This document shows positions 8,979 to 12,690 of a stretch of DNA of 64,000 nucleotides, one piece after another. The translations under genes were made by a program, and so were the position numbers. How positions within the stretch are numbered: the first letter of the stretch is position 1; each line of letters starts with the position of its first letter. The notes below the pieces were generated by a model. The model was not told the DNA's origin, ran no database searches, and saw only the letters and a program-made list of their open reading frames with translations. This DNA comes from Crossiella sp. CA-258035 (lineage in GTDB: Bacteria; Actinomycetota; Actinomycetes; Mycobacteriales; Pseudonocardiaceae): positions 653,001 through 717,000 of the forward strand of contig NZ_CP116413.1 of NCBI RefSeq assembly GCF_030064675.1. The letters run 5' to 3'.

Positions 8979-9205
8979 GGCCGCTCCTCCGCGTCCCCGG
9001 GGTACTGGAAAACCTGCTCGAGCGGCACGTTGAACACCCGCGCGATCTGGAACGCCATCTCCAGCGAGGGCGAGTACCGCCCGGCCTCGATGGCGATGAC
9101 CGTCTGCCGCGTCACGCCGATCCGCTCGGCCAGCTCCGCCTGCGTCAGCTGCCCGTGCTCGAACCGCAGCGCCCGGATCGAGTTGGTCACCCTGGTCGGC
9201 TTCAC
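8975..9205 (-). CDS. Small XRE-family transcriptional regulator
   Basis: A 76-residue protein that is almost entirely a Cro/CI-type helix-turn-helix: LTQAELAERIGVTRQTVIAI spans the HTH, and SPSLEMAFQIARVFNVPLEQ completes the fold. The GTG at 9205 overlaps the stop of the preceding membrane-protein gene (GTGA), and its own stop overlaps the next start, so three genes form one tightly coupled operon. Small regulators of this YozG-like type are often paired with a DUF2178-like membrane protein, as here. It probably controls its own operon through the palindrome at 9620-9639 (inference). Confidence 0.88.
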   Translation of the reverse strand: MKPTRVTNSIRALRFEHGQLTQAELAERIGVTRQTVIAIEAGRYSPSLEMAFQIARVFNVPLEQVFQYPGDAEERP

Positions 9206-9609
9206 CACGGCTGGAACCCCCGCCGGTAGGCGACCACCTTGGCCGTCGAGCCGAGCACCGCGGAGAGCACGAACGCCAGGTAGATCGCGTTGGCGATCCA
9301 GAAGTGCGCCGCCCCCGCCAGCGCCAGCCCCAGCGCGCCCACCCCGCCGAGAACCACGAACGACTGCCCGACGTGCTCCCCGAACCGCCCGATCTCCCGG
9401 TCCCGCTGGTCCACCCGGCCGTCCGCGCCCGGCGTCAGGACCGAGGCCACGATGTGCAGCACGATCCCCGCCACGATCCCGCCGCCGATGGCCCACAGCA
9501 TCGTCGGCACGTAGGACGCCGCCAGGCCGAACACCAGGACGAGGTAGGTGGTGTAGCCGCAGACCGCGACCACCAACAAGATCCACGCCCGCTTCTCTTC
9601 AATCGCCAT
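9202..9609 (-). CDS. Small integral membrane protein (DUF2178-like)
   Basis: A 135-residue protein with about four hydrophobic segments (starting near AWILLVVAVCG, MLWAIGGGIVAG, FVVLGGVGALGLA and IYLAFVLSAVL) and a charged central loop, VDQRDREIGRFGEH. It resembles the membrane proteins encoded next to small XRE regulators; function unknown. The ATG at 9609 follows GGGGGCGGG; an ATG ten codons upstream lies inside the operator-like palindrome and is rejected. First gene of a three-gene operon. Confidence 0.75.
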   Translation of the reverse strand: MAIEEKRAWILLVVAVCGYTTYLVLVFGLAASYVPTMLWAIGGGIVAGIVLHIVASVLTPGADGRVDQRDREIGRFGEHVGQSFVVLGGVGALGLALAGAAHFWIANAIYLAFVLSAVLGSTAKVVAYRRGFQPW

Positions 9610-9619
9610 GCCCGCCCCC

Positions 9620-9655
9620 ATGTAAAGAAAACTTGACATGGGCCAATGTAAAGAA
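9620..9655. promoter_or_regulatory. Operator-like palindrome and extra half-site
   Basis: ATGTAAAG-AAAA-CTTGACAT (9620-9639) is a 20-bp inverted repeat with one mismatched pair, 11 bases from the membrane-protein start. A further ATGTAAAG half-site lies at 9646-9653, 26 bases from the first. The AT-rich repeats stand out from the local composition and are a likely binding site for the XRE regulator of this operon. Confidence 0.55.
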
Positions 9656-9742
9656 GACCGGACACCGTGTCAAATATTCTTGACCTCGACCGGCTGGGTG
9701 AAACCCGTGCCGGGCGCCGCGACGGCCGAGTACGGTGCACCG

Positions 9743-10249
9743 ATGGCCGAAGACCAGGCGACCCACCAGTGCCCATGGCTGTTCGGCAGTGAGTGGGGAA
9801 TATCGCTGGTGTTCCTGGCCAACGAGCGGCATCCCGGCACCATCGACATCCGCCACCAGCACACCCAGCTGATCTTCGCGGTCCTGGGCCGCCTGCTGCT
9901 CCGGCTGGCCGGCGAACTGGGCCGTACCACCAGGGACATGACCATCCTCGACGACGTCCCGGTCACCGAGCTGGTGACCAGGCTGACCTCGTTCGCGTAC
10001 TTCCGGCAGCTATGCACCGCCGCCGACCTGGGAACCTCGCCCGAGCTGAGCCACCCGGTGCACATCGCCAGGGCTGAAGCCGAGCACGCGGAGCTGGCCG
10101 CGCTGCTCCAGCACCCGGACGCGGAGCGGCTGCACGAGCAGTGCCTGGAGGTCTGCCGGAACGTGCGCGGCCCGCAGAGCCAGCACTGGACCCTGTGGAA
10201 CGTCCGCTACCTCACGGCGCGGATGGAACGCGACTTCTACGGCCACTAG
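9743..10249 (+). CDS. Hypothetical protein
   Basis: Predicted soluble protein of 168 residues, not recognised. It is mostly helical in character, with conserved-looking stretches IDIRHQHTQLIFAVLGRLLL and HWTLWNVRYLTARMERDFYG. The ATG at 9743 is the first methionine after the GC composition becomes coding-like; no clear ribosome site precedes it, and a longer form starting near 9638 would run through the operator of the divergent operon. It lies directly before the decayed tRNA fragment. Confidence 0.5.
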   Translation: MAEDQATHQCPWLFGSEWGISLVFLANERHPGTIDIRHQHTQLIFAVLGRLLLRLAGELGRTTRDMTILDDVPVTELVTRLTSFAYFRQLCTAADLGTSPELSHPVHIARAEAEHAELAALLQHPDAERLHEQCLEVCRNVRGPQSQHWTLWNVRYLTARMERDFYGH

Positions 10250-10259
10250 CCGGTTCGCG

Positions 10260-10311
10260 CTGGTGAGAGTTAGTGGCCCAGGATTTGGACCTGCGACACC
10301 CGCTCTAGGAG
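10260..10311 (-). pseudogene. Decayed 3' part of tRNA-Arg(CCT)
   Basis: Partial copy of the intact tRNA at 12615-12690. ACCTGCGACACCCGCT (10289-10304) is identical to 12637-12652 and is followed after one changed base by TAGGAG, also shared. The flank CTGGTGAGAG (10260-10269) is identical to the bases beyond the 3' end of the intact tRNA. The T-arm is damaged and the 5' half is absent, so it cannot be a working tRNA. It marks the far junction of the element between the two copies. Confidence 0.75.
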
Positions 10312-10445
10312 GGTGGTCGTAGGCGTTGTCAAAGCCCTCTGCCGACCACCTCGGTCACACAACCACCCCCATGATCGTGTCATGACCTCACTGAATCGCA
10401 CCGTTTCGCGTCACCAATGGTGTCATGGATGGGGCTGCGTGTCGG

Positions 10446-11552
10446 CTACCCCAACATGCTCAGCTGCTCAGGCTTCGGCGGTCGAGCGGTGATCGTTGTC
10501 GTGCCCAGGCGCAGCGCCCCGGTGGGAGTCTGGATTAGCTTGTCTTTCTCCAGCTTGGTGAGGCACCTGGTTACGTGTGATGCCTTGTAGATTGTATGGA
10601 GCTTGGTGAACTCCCGAAGCTGTTCGACGGTCTGCGACCGGTTTGGAGAGTTAAGCAGGAGCCCGTGAAGCAGTCGTTCGAGTGGGGCGAGATCGGGTTC
10701 GTGGTGCATCGGCAGCATCTGCTGCCAGGGGTCACGGGGGTCTTGGAACCCAGCGCCTTGGACAGGGTCAGCGTTCCAGAGAGCATCCTTGAACTTCTCG
10801 ACTCCCTTGGCGGAACAGGTGCCGTACAAGAGGTTGAGCTGATCGCCGCGTGAGGTGCCGAGGTTGAAGCGGAGAACGTGGTTGAACCCAGCTGTGCGCA
10901 TCGTGGTCTCAAACTCACGGGCGATGTGTTCCCGCTTCTTGTAAGGCTCATGCTGCGCCACATCGCGCCAGGCAGTGTCTCCAAAGATCGCGTCGCCGCG
11001 GGCGTGATCCGAGTGGAACCGGGCAAAGTGCTGAGGCAGGACCGTGTAGATCACCTCCGAACTCTTGTTGGTGGCGATGTTGGCGAGGAGCTGGGCAGGC
11101 ACGCCACCGCCGAAGGTGTCAAAGATCGCGAGTATCGGCTTACCCCATACTTTCGACTCATTGAGCAACTTGGGGAGTTCGTGCTGACACTCACCGCAAC
11201 GCAAGCGCACCTCGACGACGCCGTCGTCGAAGTCGAACACTGGTGCCCCGACATTCAGAATCTTCCCGAGTTCACCAGCCAGCAGGTGTGCGTTGTGCCG
11301 CTCCTTCTCGACCAACAGGAACCGAGCCCGCTGAAGCTGACTAAATTCGCGGCGCCTGCGGAGCAGTCGGCTCAACGCGATGATCGGTGAGCCCTCTTCT
11401 CCGTGGCTGTAGATGCCGCAGCCGGAAAACCCCTCGGCGTAGGTGACCTCGCCGTATCGCTGGATCAGGATGGGGAACCAGGCGTCAAGGTACTTCCCGT
11501 AGATCTTGTGCTTCGCCGCCGTGTGTGGCGCTAGATCCCAAGGCCCCTTCAT
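10446..11552 (-). CDS. tcmP: Three-Cys-motif partner protein TcmP
   Basis: About 368 residues. The N-terminus has the family hallmarks: HTAAKHKIYGKYLDAWFPI, then a YAEGFSGCGIY...EEGSP segment resembling a nucleotide- or SAM-binding loop, IFDTFGGG in the middle, and a winged-helix-like C-terminal end (REFTKLHTIYKASHVTRCLT). TcmP is named for being encoded next to three-Cys-motif (Gp37/Gp68, DUF5131) proteins, and exactly such a gene lies 60 bases upstream in the same operon. Biochemical function is unknown. The ATG at 11552 has GGGGG eight bases upstream; a TTG at 11585 in the same frame would add 11 residues. GC is clearly lower than in flanking genes. Confidence 0.85.
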   Translation of the reverse strand: MKGPWDLAPHTAAKHKIYGKYLDAWFPILIQRYGEVTYAEGFSGCGIYSHGEEGSPIIALSRLLRRRREFSQLQRARFLLVEKERHNAHLLAGELGKILNVGAPVFDFDDGVVEVRLRCGECQHELPKLLNESKVWGKPILAIFDTFGGGVPAQLLANIATNKSSEVIYTVLPQHFARFHSDHARGDAIFGDTAWRDVAQHEPYKKREHIAREFETTMRTAGFNHVLRFNLGTSRGDQLNLLYGTCSAKGVEKFKDALWNADPVQGAGFQDPRDPWQQMLPMHHEPDLAPLERLLHGLLLNSPNRSQTVEQLREFTKLHTIYKASHVTRCLTKLEKDKLIQTPTGALRLGTTTITARPPKPEQLSMLG

Positions 11553-11615
11553 CGACACCCCCGGCCATTCGTAGTGATATGGCAACTACACAGTGCGGAG
11601 GTTCAGGAAGCGGCG

Positions 11616-12374
11616 TCAAGCGGTTCCGGCAAGTTCGTTCGTTTGAGGCATCTCATCCCACGTGCGTCCCTGCAGTTCGCGGCCACCAGACTTGGGCGTC
11701 CGGCCGCCCCACTGCTTGAAGAAGAAGGGCACGTCGGCACGTACGCACTGGTCTCGAAGGCCGAGGACCCATGTCTCGTCTACGGGGCGAGCATGTGGGC
11801 CAGACTCGCCGCCGACGATGAGCCAGTGGATTCCGTCAAGGTCGAGGTTCGGCAGTGGGCCGAGCAGTGGCTCACAAGACAAGAAGCGAACGGCAGCGGG
11901 AACGGAGCGGAGATCATCCATTCGGCTGAGCGTGTCGGTGTTCTCTACAGAGACGCCAACCCAGACGTTCGGGGGCCAGGCCAAGCCCCCGGCGAGCCGG
12001 TGCAGACGCCGCGCTCGTTTGGTCAGGATTTGGTAGGTGTGCTGAGGGGTTGCCTCCATGACCGCGAAAACACGGCGAATGAAGTCCACCGAGACCTTGG
12101 CGTGGAACAGGTCGCTCATGGAGTTGACGAACACCAACCGTGGTTCTCGCCAGCGCAGAGGCGCTACGAGAGCATCGGCGTGGACTGCAACGCCGAAACC
12201 CGGCCCGCTGGTTCGAGGATCGCCGTCGTGTTGGTACTTGGCCGATCCCATCGCCTTCAGCCGTTTGGCCAAGGTCAGGGCGTAGCAGTTGTCGCACCCA
12301 GCCGAGACCTTGTCGCACCCAGTGGTCGGGTTCCACGTGGTCTCGGTCCACTCAATGCGAGACCGTGTGCTCAT
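11616..12374 (-). CDS. Phage Gp37/Gp68-like three-Cys-motif protein (DUF5131)
   Basis: A 252-residue protein of the DUF5131 (phage Gp37/Gp68) family. It opens with IEWTETTWNPTTGC and has three cysteines at residues 20, 27 and 30 (CDKVSAGCDNC), a metal- or cluster-binding arrangement reminiscent of radical-SAM enzymes but not proven to be one. Further family blocks: FVNSMSDLFH, WVGVSVEN, FLSCEPLLGPL, IVGGESGP and FFFKQWGG. The ATG at 12374 is fixed by AGGAGGT six bases upstream. It forms an operon with the TcmP gene. Members are frequent in phages and plasmids; the pair may act on nucleic acid, but no function is established. Confidence 0.88.
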   Translation of the reverse strand: MSTRSRIEWTETTWNPTTGCDKVSAGCDNCYALTLAKRLKAMGSAKYQHDGDPRTSGPGFGVAVHADALVAPLRWREPRLVFVNSMSDLFHAKVSVDFIRRVFAVMEATPQHTYQILTKRARRLHRLAGGLAWPPNVWVGVSVENTDTLSRMDDLRSVPAAVRFLSCEPLLGPLPNLDLDGIHWLIVGGESGPHARPVDETWVLGLRDQCVRADVPFFFKQWGGRTPKSGGRELQGRTWDEMPQTNELAGTA

Positions 12375-12614
12375 CGTGGCACCTCCTGAGACTGAGCCAC
12401 GGTAAACCAGTGATGATCCGCTTCTGACGCTAGCCCCTAGTACGCCCGATTCGAACACCCGTTCGGTGGATTTTGTTCGTAGAGATGCAGTGAGCGGCTC
12501 AAGGTGACTGGTCCCCTGTCTTGATCGACGAGGTGCCCGTCAAGTTGAGGACTCCCGTCAGTCACCACCAACCGGGTCGTGATCTTGCTGGCCAGCATTT
12601 CCGCTGGTGAGAGA

Positions 12615-12690
12615 TGGTGGCCCCGGCAGGATTCGAACCTGCGACACCCGCTTTAGGAGAGCGGTGCTCTATCCCCTGAGCTACGAGGCC
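12615..12690 (-). tRNA. tRNA-Arg(CCT)
   Basis: Complete cloverleaf on the minus strand reading AGG codons: acceptor GGCCTCG/CGGGGCC with one G-T pair, D-arm, anticodon stem CCGCT/AGCGG with loop CTCCTAA (anticodon CCT), T-arm GCAGG-TTCGAAT-CCTGC, and an encoded CCA at 12617-12615. It is the apparent integration site of the DUF5131-TcmP island lying downstream of its 3' end. Confidence 0.96.

Follow-up and report, generated by a model that had tools for sequence, protein, structure and literature searches.

A short module at an intact tRNA-Arg(CCT) gene of Crossiella sp. CA-258035 contains only two genes, for a DUF5131 protein and its partner TcmP, and it is probably the stranded cargo end of a larger element that lost about 21.7 kb by internal deletion. 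The module lies in a stretch of 64,000 nucleotides (the window; positions 653,001 to 717,000 of contig NZ_CP116413.1), which is part of a genome consisting of one contig of 9.17 Mb. The same module forms the distal end of a 24-kb, integrase-bearing element of the actinomycete integrative and conjugative element (AICE) type at the same tRNA in Crossiella sp. S99.2 (G003). The window locus itself would be a remnant of such an element and, with two cargo genes only, is not a member of the class. The explanation that we consider probable also includes a chemistry of two enzymes that would use S-adenosylmethionine (SAM), and an older element that would have occupied the same tRNA first.

The tRNA-Arg locus and its counterpart in a congener

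The intact tRNA-Arg(CCT), the integration site, is located at 12615-12690 on the minus strand (ARAGORN; Rfam RF00005, 67.5 bits). The distal attachment (att) site, at 10258-10317 on the same strand, is a worn copy of the tRNA's 3' portion; its alignment covers 12 identical downstream bases as well and includes a gap of 4 bases and a number of substitutions. In the genome search it was matched by a 1.5-kb query around the tRNA (E 1.6e-10, 83%), while a 101-base tRNA query found three places in the 9.17-Mb genome at E <= 0.001, namely the tRNA, the worn copy (E 3.8e-11, 84%) and one other tRNA-Arg-like place. A chance origin of the worn copy is excluded. The GC content is 0.610 in the 2.25 kb between the tRNA copies versus 0.711 elsewhere in the window (outside 9687-12690), and among 1235 segments of 2.25-kb length the sole two equally low in GC were the module itself.

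The DUF5131 gene (11616-12374, minus strand, ATG at 12374) encodes a phage Gp37/Gp68-like, three-Cys-motif protein of 252 amino acids that matches PF07505 with an E-value of 4.7e-101. The tcmP gene (10446-11585, minus strand) starts with TTG at 11585 or, alternatively, with ATG at 11552, and its product of 379 amino acids matches TIGR04474 above the cut-off (E 8.7e-38). The remaining listed open reading frames of the module are overlaps with these two genes in other frames, and neither the reading frame list nor the Pfam and TIGR scans revealed an integrase, Rep or Tra gene in the module. The preliminary description of this DNA was therefore right in that an intact tRNA-Arg(CCT) and a decayed 3' copy bracket 2.3 kb of lower GC content that encode DUF5131 and TcmP only and no integrase. 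No truncated integrase was found in the window remnant either, and when the G003 integrase was used as a protein query against the host's own genome, the best match had 28% identity; therefore, the remnant looks stranded.

Five Crossiella genomes, including that of the window, were compared at this site. Two of them carry DUF5131 and TcmP, both at this tRNA-Arg; the preliminary description had named relatives with the genes at non-tRNA positions as evidence against an insertion, and none were seen. The empty site with one tRNA that it expected in a relative was found in G001, where a terminator is followed by a single tRNA-Arg. At its distal end, the G003 locus has the native terminator together with an exact 3' half of the tRNA (45 bp). 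Next come the module (93.5% identity to window 10279-12569 over 2292 columns), about 21.7 kb of further sequence, a 44-bp proximal flank and the intact tRNA, an arrangement typical of integration at tRNA 3' ends. No further att-like match was found inside the G003 stretch by BLAST at E <= 1e-3. The proximal flank of G003 equals window 12571-12614 (no strand), the element-derived flank adjoining the 3' end of the intact tRNA, which matches 8984-9027 of the G003 locus L038 and 10192-10235 of the G004 locus L036. The homology of the window to the G003 module stops at 12569 and that to the G003 proximal flank starts at 12571, the module being joined straight to the flank at a few shared letters (ACC/ACCGG, by eye); the putative deletion joint thus lies at 12567-12575 (no strand).

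Because no inner att match was found in G003 and the window module directly abuts the proximal flank, our reading is that the window locus arose from a G003-like element by internal deletion. In this scenario, an AICE-type element would have inserted at the 3' end of tRNA-Arg(CCT) and later lost about 21.7 kb, including its integrase gene and the excisionase-like, replication-like and transfer-like genes. The DUF5131-TcmP pair, some 44 bp from the tRNA-proximal side and the worn distal att would have stayed behind. The integration, the larger element of the congener and the low dN/dS of the pair (0.04 for TcmP and 0.12 for DUF5131, window versus G003) are apparent from the sequences, while we infer the direction of change, a deletion, from one relative, G003.

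The G003 element carries a tyrosine integrase-GntR fusion beside the tRNA (PF00589, 3.7e-17), and this recombinase gene is combined with tRNA 3'-end integration and att repeats (the exact 45-bp repeat at the native terminator), as is required of an AICE. Pfam was used to scan 16 of the 25 gene calls in the 21.7 kb; further genes of the element encode an HTH_17 excisionase-like protein, a DUF3987 protein (1.5e-101), a GntR regulator, an NB-ARC protein and an inositol-phosphatase-like protein. The 21.7 kb also encode a PycTM membrane protein (L037:14633-15178), and a Pycsar-effector-type protein of this sort was noted near the pair both here and, by annotation, on the Micromonospora plasmid NZ_CP108881.1 (L190).

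The other two genomes are informative about the flanks. G002 has only the tRNA region in common with the window locus. G004, which belongs to the same species as the window, is without DUF5131 and was considered as a pristine empty site; it was rejected in favor of G001, as element sequence is retained beside its tRNA (44 bp in the alignment, possibly some 100 bp when judged by eye). The native flank at the tRNA is the terminator present in G001 and G003, and the G001 match to the window starts only at 12603. The worn copy at 10258 bears 12 bases of element-type flank and not the native terminator. Of the earlier statement that the worn copy has the same downstream flank as the intact tRNA, the shared 12 bases hold; a reading of these bases as native sequence was rejected since they are element sequence. 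The element flank on the worn copy points to a second, older element, and the simplest account suggested by these alignments is that an earlier element at the tRNA-Arg decayed before the second arrived (accretion).

On the left side, the homology ends at 9686 in G003 and at 9685 in G001 but extends to 10234 in G004. A gene of 185-203 amino acids at 9687-10249 (plus strand) is mostly present in G004 and is not found at this site in G001 and G003. The altered region is therefore wider than first described, and this gene may be a remnant of the older element that would have occupied the same tRNA first. Its product has no Pfam match above the cut-off, with tetratricopeptide repeat matches below the threshold only. 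A tRNA fragment without a nearby insertion, the other observation that the preliminary description held to be damaging, was not encountered in the material examined.

The pair in other genomes, phages and plasmids

The genome collection contained 174 DUF5131 relatives, of which 80 loci were kept; with the G003 copy (L041) set aside, 79 remained. A TcmP match was present within 500 bp of DUF5131 in 62 loci, arranged as tandem DUF5131-TcmP (26), convergent (20), tandem TcmP-DUF5131 (15) or divergent (1) genes. The other 17 loci had no TcmP match within 500 bp, three of them having fewer than 600 bases on one side. That the pair is kept together through four arrangements argues for a joint function of DUF5131 and TcmP. 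In the order, DUF5131 was found above the cut-off in 39 of 298 genomes.

Phage records with DUF5131 numbered 159 out of 50,697, and plasmid records 370 out of 72,556. A TcmP like that of the window was detected in 5 phage records and 15 plasmid records, counts that are low because the protein diverges fast. Among the 11 phage regions viewed, a TcmP match was located beside DUF5131 in Gordonia phage Jablanski and Synechococcus phage Yong-M2-251 and was undetected in the other nine (L186, L194-L201), which suggests that a solo DUF5131 branch exists beside the paired one. Two plasmid regions, chosen from records already known to hold TcmP, both have the pair. In eight of the nine regions without TcmP, the DUF5131 protein is longer than 252 amino acids.

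A tRNA was present in 17 of the 79 loci, and in six of these a 3'-tRNA repeat was located beyond the pair. Five cases are clear: Haloechinothrix aidingensis (L042, tRNA-Thr, three copies of 42-44 bp, 97.6-97.7%), Amycolatopsis roodepoortensis (L047, tRNA-Thr, 43/43), H. halophila (L050, tRNA-Ala, 46/46), Mycobacterium sp. M26 (L098, tRNA-Ala, 28/28) and a Sandaracinaceae bin (L107, tRNA-Leu, 52/52). The sixth, an Acidimicrobiia bin (L071, tRNA-Pro), is weaker, with a repeat of 22 bp with one mismatch and ordinary-looking genes among those between. In addition, L046 has a tRNA-Lys 3' fragment beyond the pair. A profile search detected no complete integrase in the five clear islands; partial ones were found in L047, L050 and L098, on which Pfam agrees, and none in the first unit of L042 or in L107. 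The profile was grown from the G003 integrase and may miss other integrases, and the loci were taken with 10 kb on either side, which favors short, broken islands. L045 differs in that an almost full-length integrase adjoins its tRNA-Pro, 3.4 kb from the pair.

As a control, 35 stretches of 12 kb downstream of tRNAs of the host genome (44 tRNA calls, overlaps included) contained three distinct repeat sites. The enrichment of 3'-tRNA repeats at the pair loci is modest (p 0.025 in a one-sided Fisher test, rising to 0.065 when the weak L071 is left out) in a comparison of sets that differ in geometry, with loci chosen for the gene and all controls coming from one genome. In the host's own genome, the three tRNA sites L211, L218 and L221/L222 (near 0.33, 1.68 and 1.31 Mb) have exact repeats of the tRNA 3' part, 39-43 bp long and no more than 12 kb away, the tRNA-Lys site adjoining a distant integrase relative (G000:C1:1315483). 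In L071, a Mrr-type restriction endonuclease gene (9038-9967; Mrr_cat, 2.8e-30) adjoins the pair.

Predicted chemistry and a possible role in defense

The window TcmP scores above the cut-off of TIGR04474 and adjoins DUF5131, as expected for TcmP and its three-Cys-motif partner. The TIGR04474 and DUF5131 family models assign no function, and the tRNA-island habit is an addition made here. Our literature search found nothing under DUF5131 by name and nothing joining Gp37, Gp68 and radical SAM, and 'three-Cys-motif' appeared as table mentions only in the papers examined. An expression table in the portion of PMC12445080 that was available lists the TcmP gene SMa2243 of Sinorhizobium meliloti next to the Hna defense gene SMa2245.

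To get an idea of the possible chemistry, the AlphaFold models (pLDDT 89.3 for DUF5131 and 88.6 for TcmP) were compared with known structures. DUF5131 appears radical-SAM-like by fold. Its best match in the PDB was spore photoproduct lyase (E 9.1e-4, TM 0.45), and the first ten matches include lipoyl synthase and MiaB, all scoring modestly and interspersed with other barrel proteins. The viral fold matches include DUF5131 relatives, GP88 and radical-SAM proteins. Cysteines 20, 27 and 30 are conserved in 52, 53 and 52 of 53 sequences (an alignment of 52 of 77 usable loci and the window), and TIGR04471 gave a partial match below its cut-off. DUF5131 differs from spore photoproduct lyase in that it is shorter, has only 14% identity to it and spaces its cysteines as Cx6Cx2C.

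For TcmP, there were 20 PDB fold matches at E <= 0.001, consisting of one spermidine synthase, two Rv2258c, which we take to be a methyltransferase, and otherwise named methyltransferases or the tRNA-modifying TYW4; some of the matched methyltransferases act on RNA. Many rows of the TcmP alignment (46 of 48 loci and the window) contain a glycine-rich motif of the FAGxG type, and the predicted Rossmann domain together with this motif is what characterizes a SAM-dependent methyltransferase. A C-terminal winged helix is perhaps also present, the GMT-wHTH match near the C-terminus (1.6e-4) being below its cut-off. In a search of the PDB with the TcmP profile, four of five weak matches were the 23S rRNA methyltransferase RlmJ (E about 1.3). 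TcmP resembles RlmJ in FAGxGxY and GSPxIA stretches, and a structure of DUF519, presumably the RlmJ family, is fold match 21, whereas the sequence match is not significant and the DPPY-type motif is replaced. In the 47 TcmP sequences, D156 is invariant and is followed by PFG, SWG, PCG, PNG, QES, TFG and others.

From the folds and the conserved residues, we infer that the pair may consist of two SAM-using enzymes acting on nucleic acid. In DUF5131, the three conserved cysteines would bind a [4Fe-4S] cluster and the enzyme would generate a radical from SAM, while TcmP would act as a SAM-dependent methyltransferase, perhaps aimed by the winged helix. Together they could modify or repair nucleic acid and so help the carrier against phages or rival elements.

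Defense is a candidate function of the pair, which we put forward as a tentative guess. The PDC-M30 models of PADLOC match the adjacent window genes (component A, TcmP, 1.2e-27; component B, DUF5131, 1.9e-106), and in PDC-M30, as in the window, both components are adjacent. The model PDC-M41B scores higher on DUF5131 (6.1e-111), while PDC-M41A barely matches TcmP (0.027). These matches are at the level of models, PADLOC's own system rules and thresholds not being applied. PDC-M30 is itself a bioinformatic candidate defense system; in the part of PMC10855318 consulted, 32 P. aeruginosa strains are predicted to carry it, 68.8% of these being phage-resistant, a correlation only. The literature search yielded nothing for PDC-M41. 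The neighbors of the pair were sampled at 21 of the 79 loci, where 142 proteins out of 160 called genes matched 60 models in all; the 25 models listed include HamB, which we take to be Hachiman, PifA, AbiU and methylase models. In the control, 23 models were matched in 109 proteins, 17 of them for PD-T4-6. Both tallies count models and not proteins, and the control came from Crossiella genomes only (109 of 151 called genes, at most 15 per locus; two loci with likely out-of-frame calls in giant genes were dropped).

Instead of defending the host, the pair could repair or modify DNA in the service of the element or phage that carries it, as housekeeping or counter-defense. This is rather doubtful in our view, even though spore photoproduct lyase, which DUF5131 resembles best by fold, repairs DNA, most of the phage regions viewed have no detected TcmP beside DUF5131 and five of those regions have annotated DNA methyltransferase, HNH endonuclease or replication initiation neighbors. 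Against it, the neighbors in actinobacteria include defense-type genes, and the pair of Gordonia phage Jablanski sits between the integrase genes and the immunity repressor, a usual position for accessory cargo. The full proposal, in which a radical-SAM enzyme and a methyltransferase form a SAM-fuelled nucleic-acid modification defense, spread on tRNA-integrated elements across phyla and kept by hosts after integrase loss, is rather unlikely.

Weighing the deletion reading

A stand-alone minimal island was the first reading of the locus, also given in the preliminary description, and it was rejected as G003 shows the larger element. A related alternative is that the 2.3-kb unit is a self-contained mobile cassette, or satellite, which borrows the integrase of other elements at the tRNA, G003 having later gained a full element beside it. 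The lack of an integrase in the module, the tRNA 3' sequence at both of its ends, the other short pair-bearing islands at other tRNAs and the accretion at tRNA-Arg known from the accessible part of PMC9513070 are compatible with such a cassette. We nevertheless regard it as very unlikely, because no att-like match was found at E <= 1e-3 between the G003 module and the rest of the element, the G003-type tRNA-proximal end is still joined to the module in the window, the window distal att is worn and the host's own genome offers only the 28% match to the G003 integrase. Equally improbable is that the pair is neutral debris, a chance survivor of the deletion, as both window frames are open and the dN/dS values are low, although part of the divergence may predate the deletion; the absence of mobility genes, the broken TcmP frame in L107 and the remnants with leftover cargo described in the same portion of PMC9513070 would fit it.

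Several observations weigh against the deletion reading and the chemistry attached to it. The large element is known from G003 only, a genome with 6% contamination, and the reverse direction of change is possible. The in-frame TAG in the TcmP gene of L107 speaks against selection for the pair there. For DUF5131, spore photoproduct lyase is the sole PDB fold match at E <= 0.001, and the Cx6Cx2C spacing is unlike the usual radical SAM motif, CxxxCxxC. No sequence relative of it was found in the PDB, where searches with single-protein profiles of either protein gave one chance-level match or none. TcmP is without a DPPY-type motif and does not qualify as an N6-adenine methyltransferase, the catalytic motif of which is [DNS]PP[YFW]. 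The 662-amino-acid ATPase-like protein of the G003 element has a weak FtsK/SpoIIIE match below the Pfam cut-off (PF01580, E 0.0074), and neither DUF3631 nor Prim-Pol was matched among the 16 of 25 G003 gene calls; RepSA is without a model, and the DUF3987 protein is present. According to the part of PMC3218068 available, AICEs are defined by an FtsK/SpoIIIE-type Tra protein and a RepSA, RepAM (DUF3631) or Prim-Pol replication protein. As these replication proteins were not matched, the element is labeled AICE-type.

The decay and accretion of AICEs, including tRNA-Arg stacks and cargo left between repeats, have already been described in Streptomyces (PMC9513070, in the part seen). The remnants presented there resemble the window in having cargo between direct repeats after the loss of mobility genes, elements stacked at one tRNA-Arg and empty sites in some strains, and differ from it in that the window host is Crossiella, the cargo is DUF5131-TcmP and no truncated integrase was found. 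As a remnant, the window island belongs to a type described before and illustrates element decay clearly, with nothing out of the ordinary; new here is the recurrence of the pair in tRNA islands of unrelated bacteria. It is the pair and not the island that could matter, as it is widespread, occurs in four arrangements and is found on phages, plasmids and tRNA islands. A direct test is within reach, since the comparison supplies a well-delimited pair along with a congener that bears the larger element and a strain of the same species that lacks the pair. If the two-enzyme defense proposal is true, stranded copies of the pair would become resident immunity genes.

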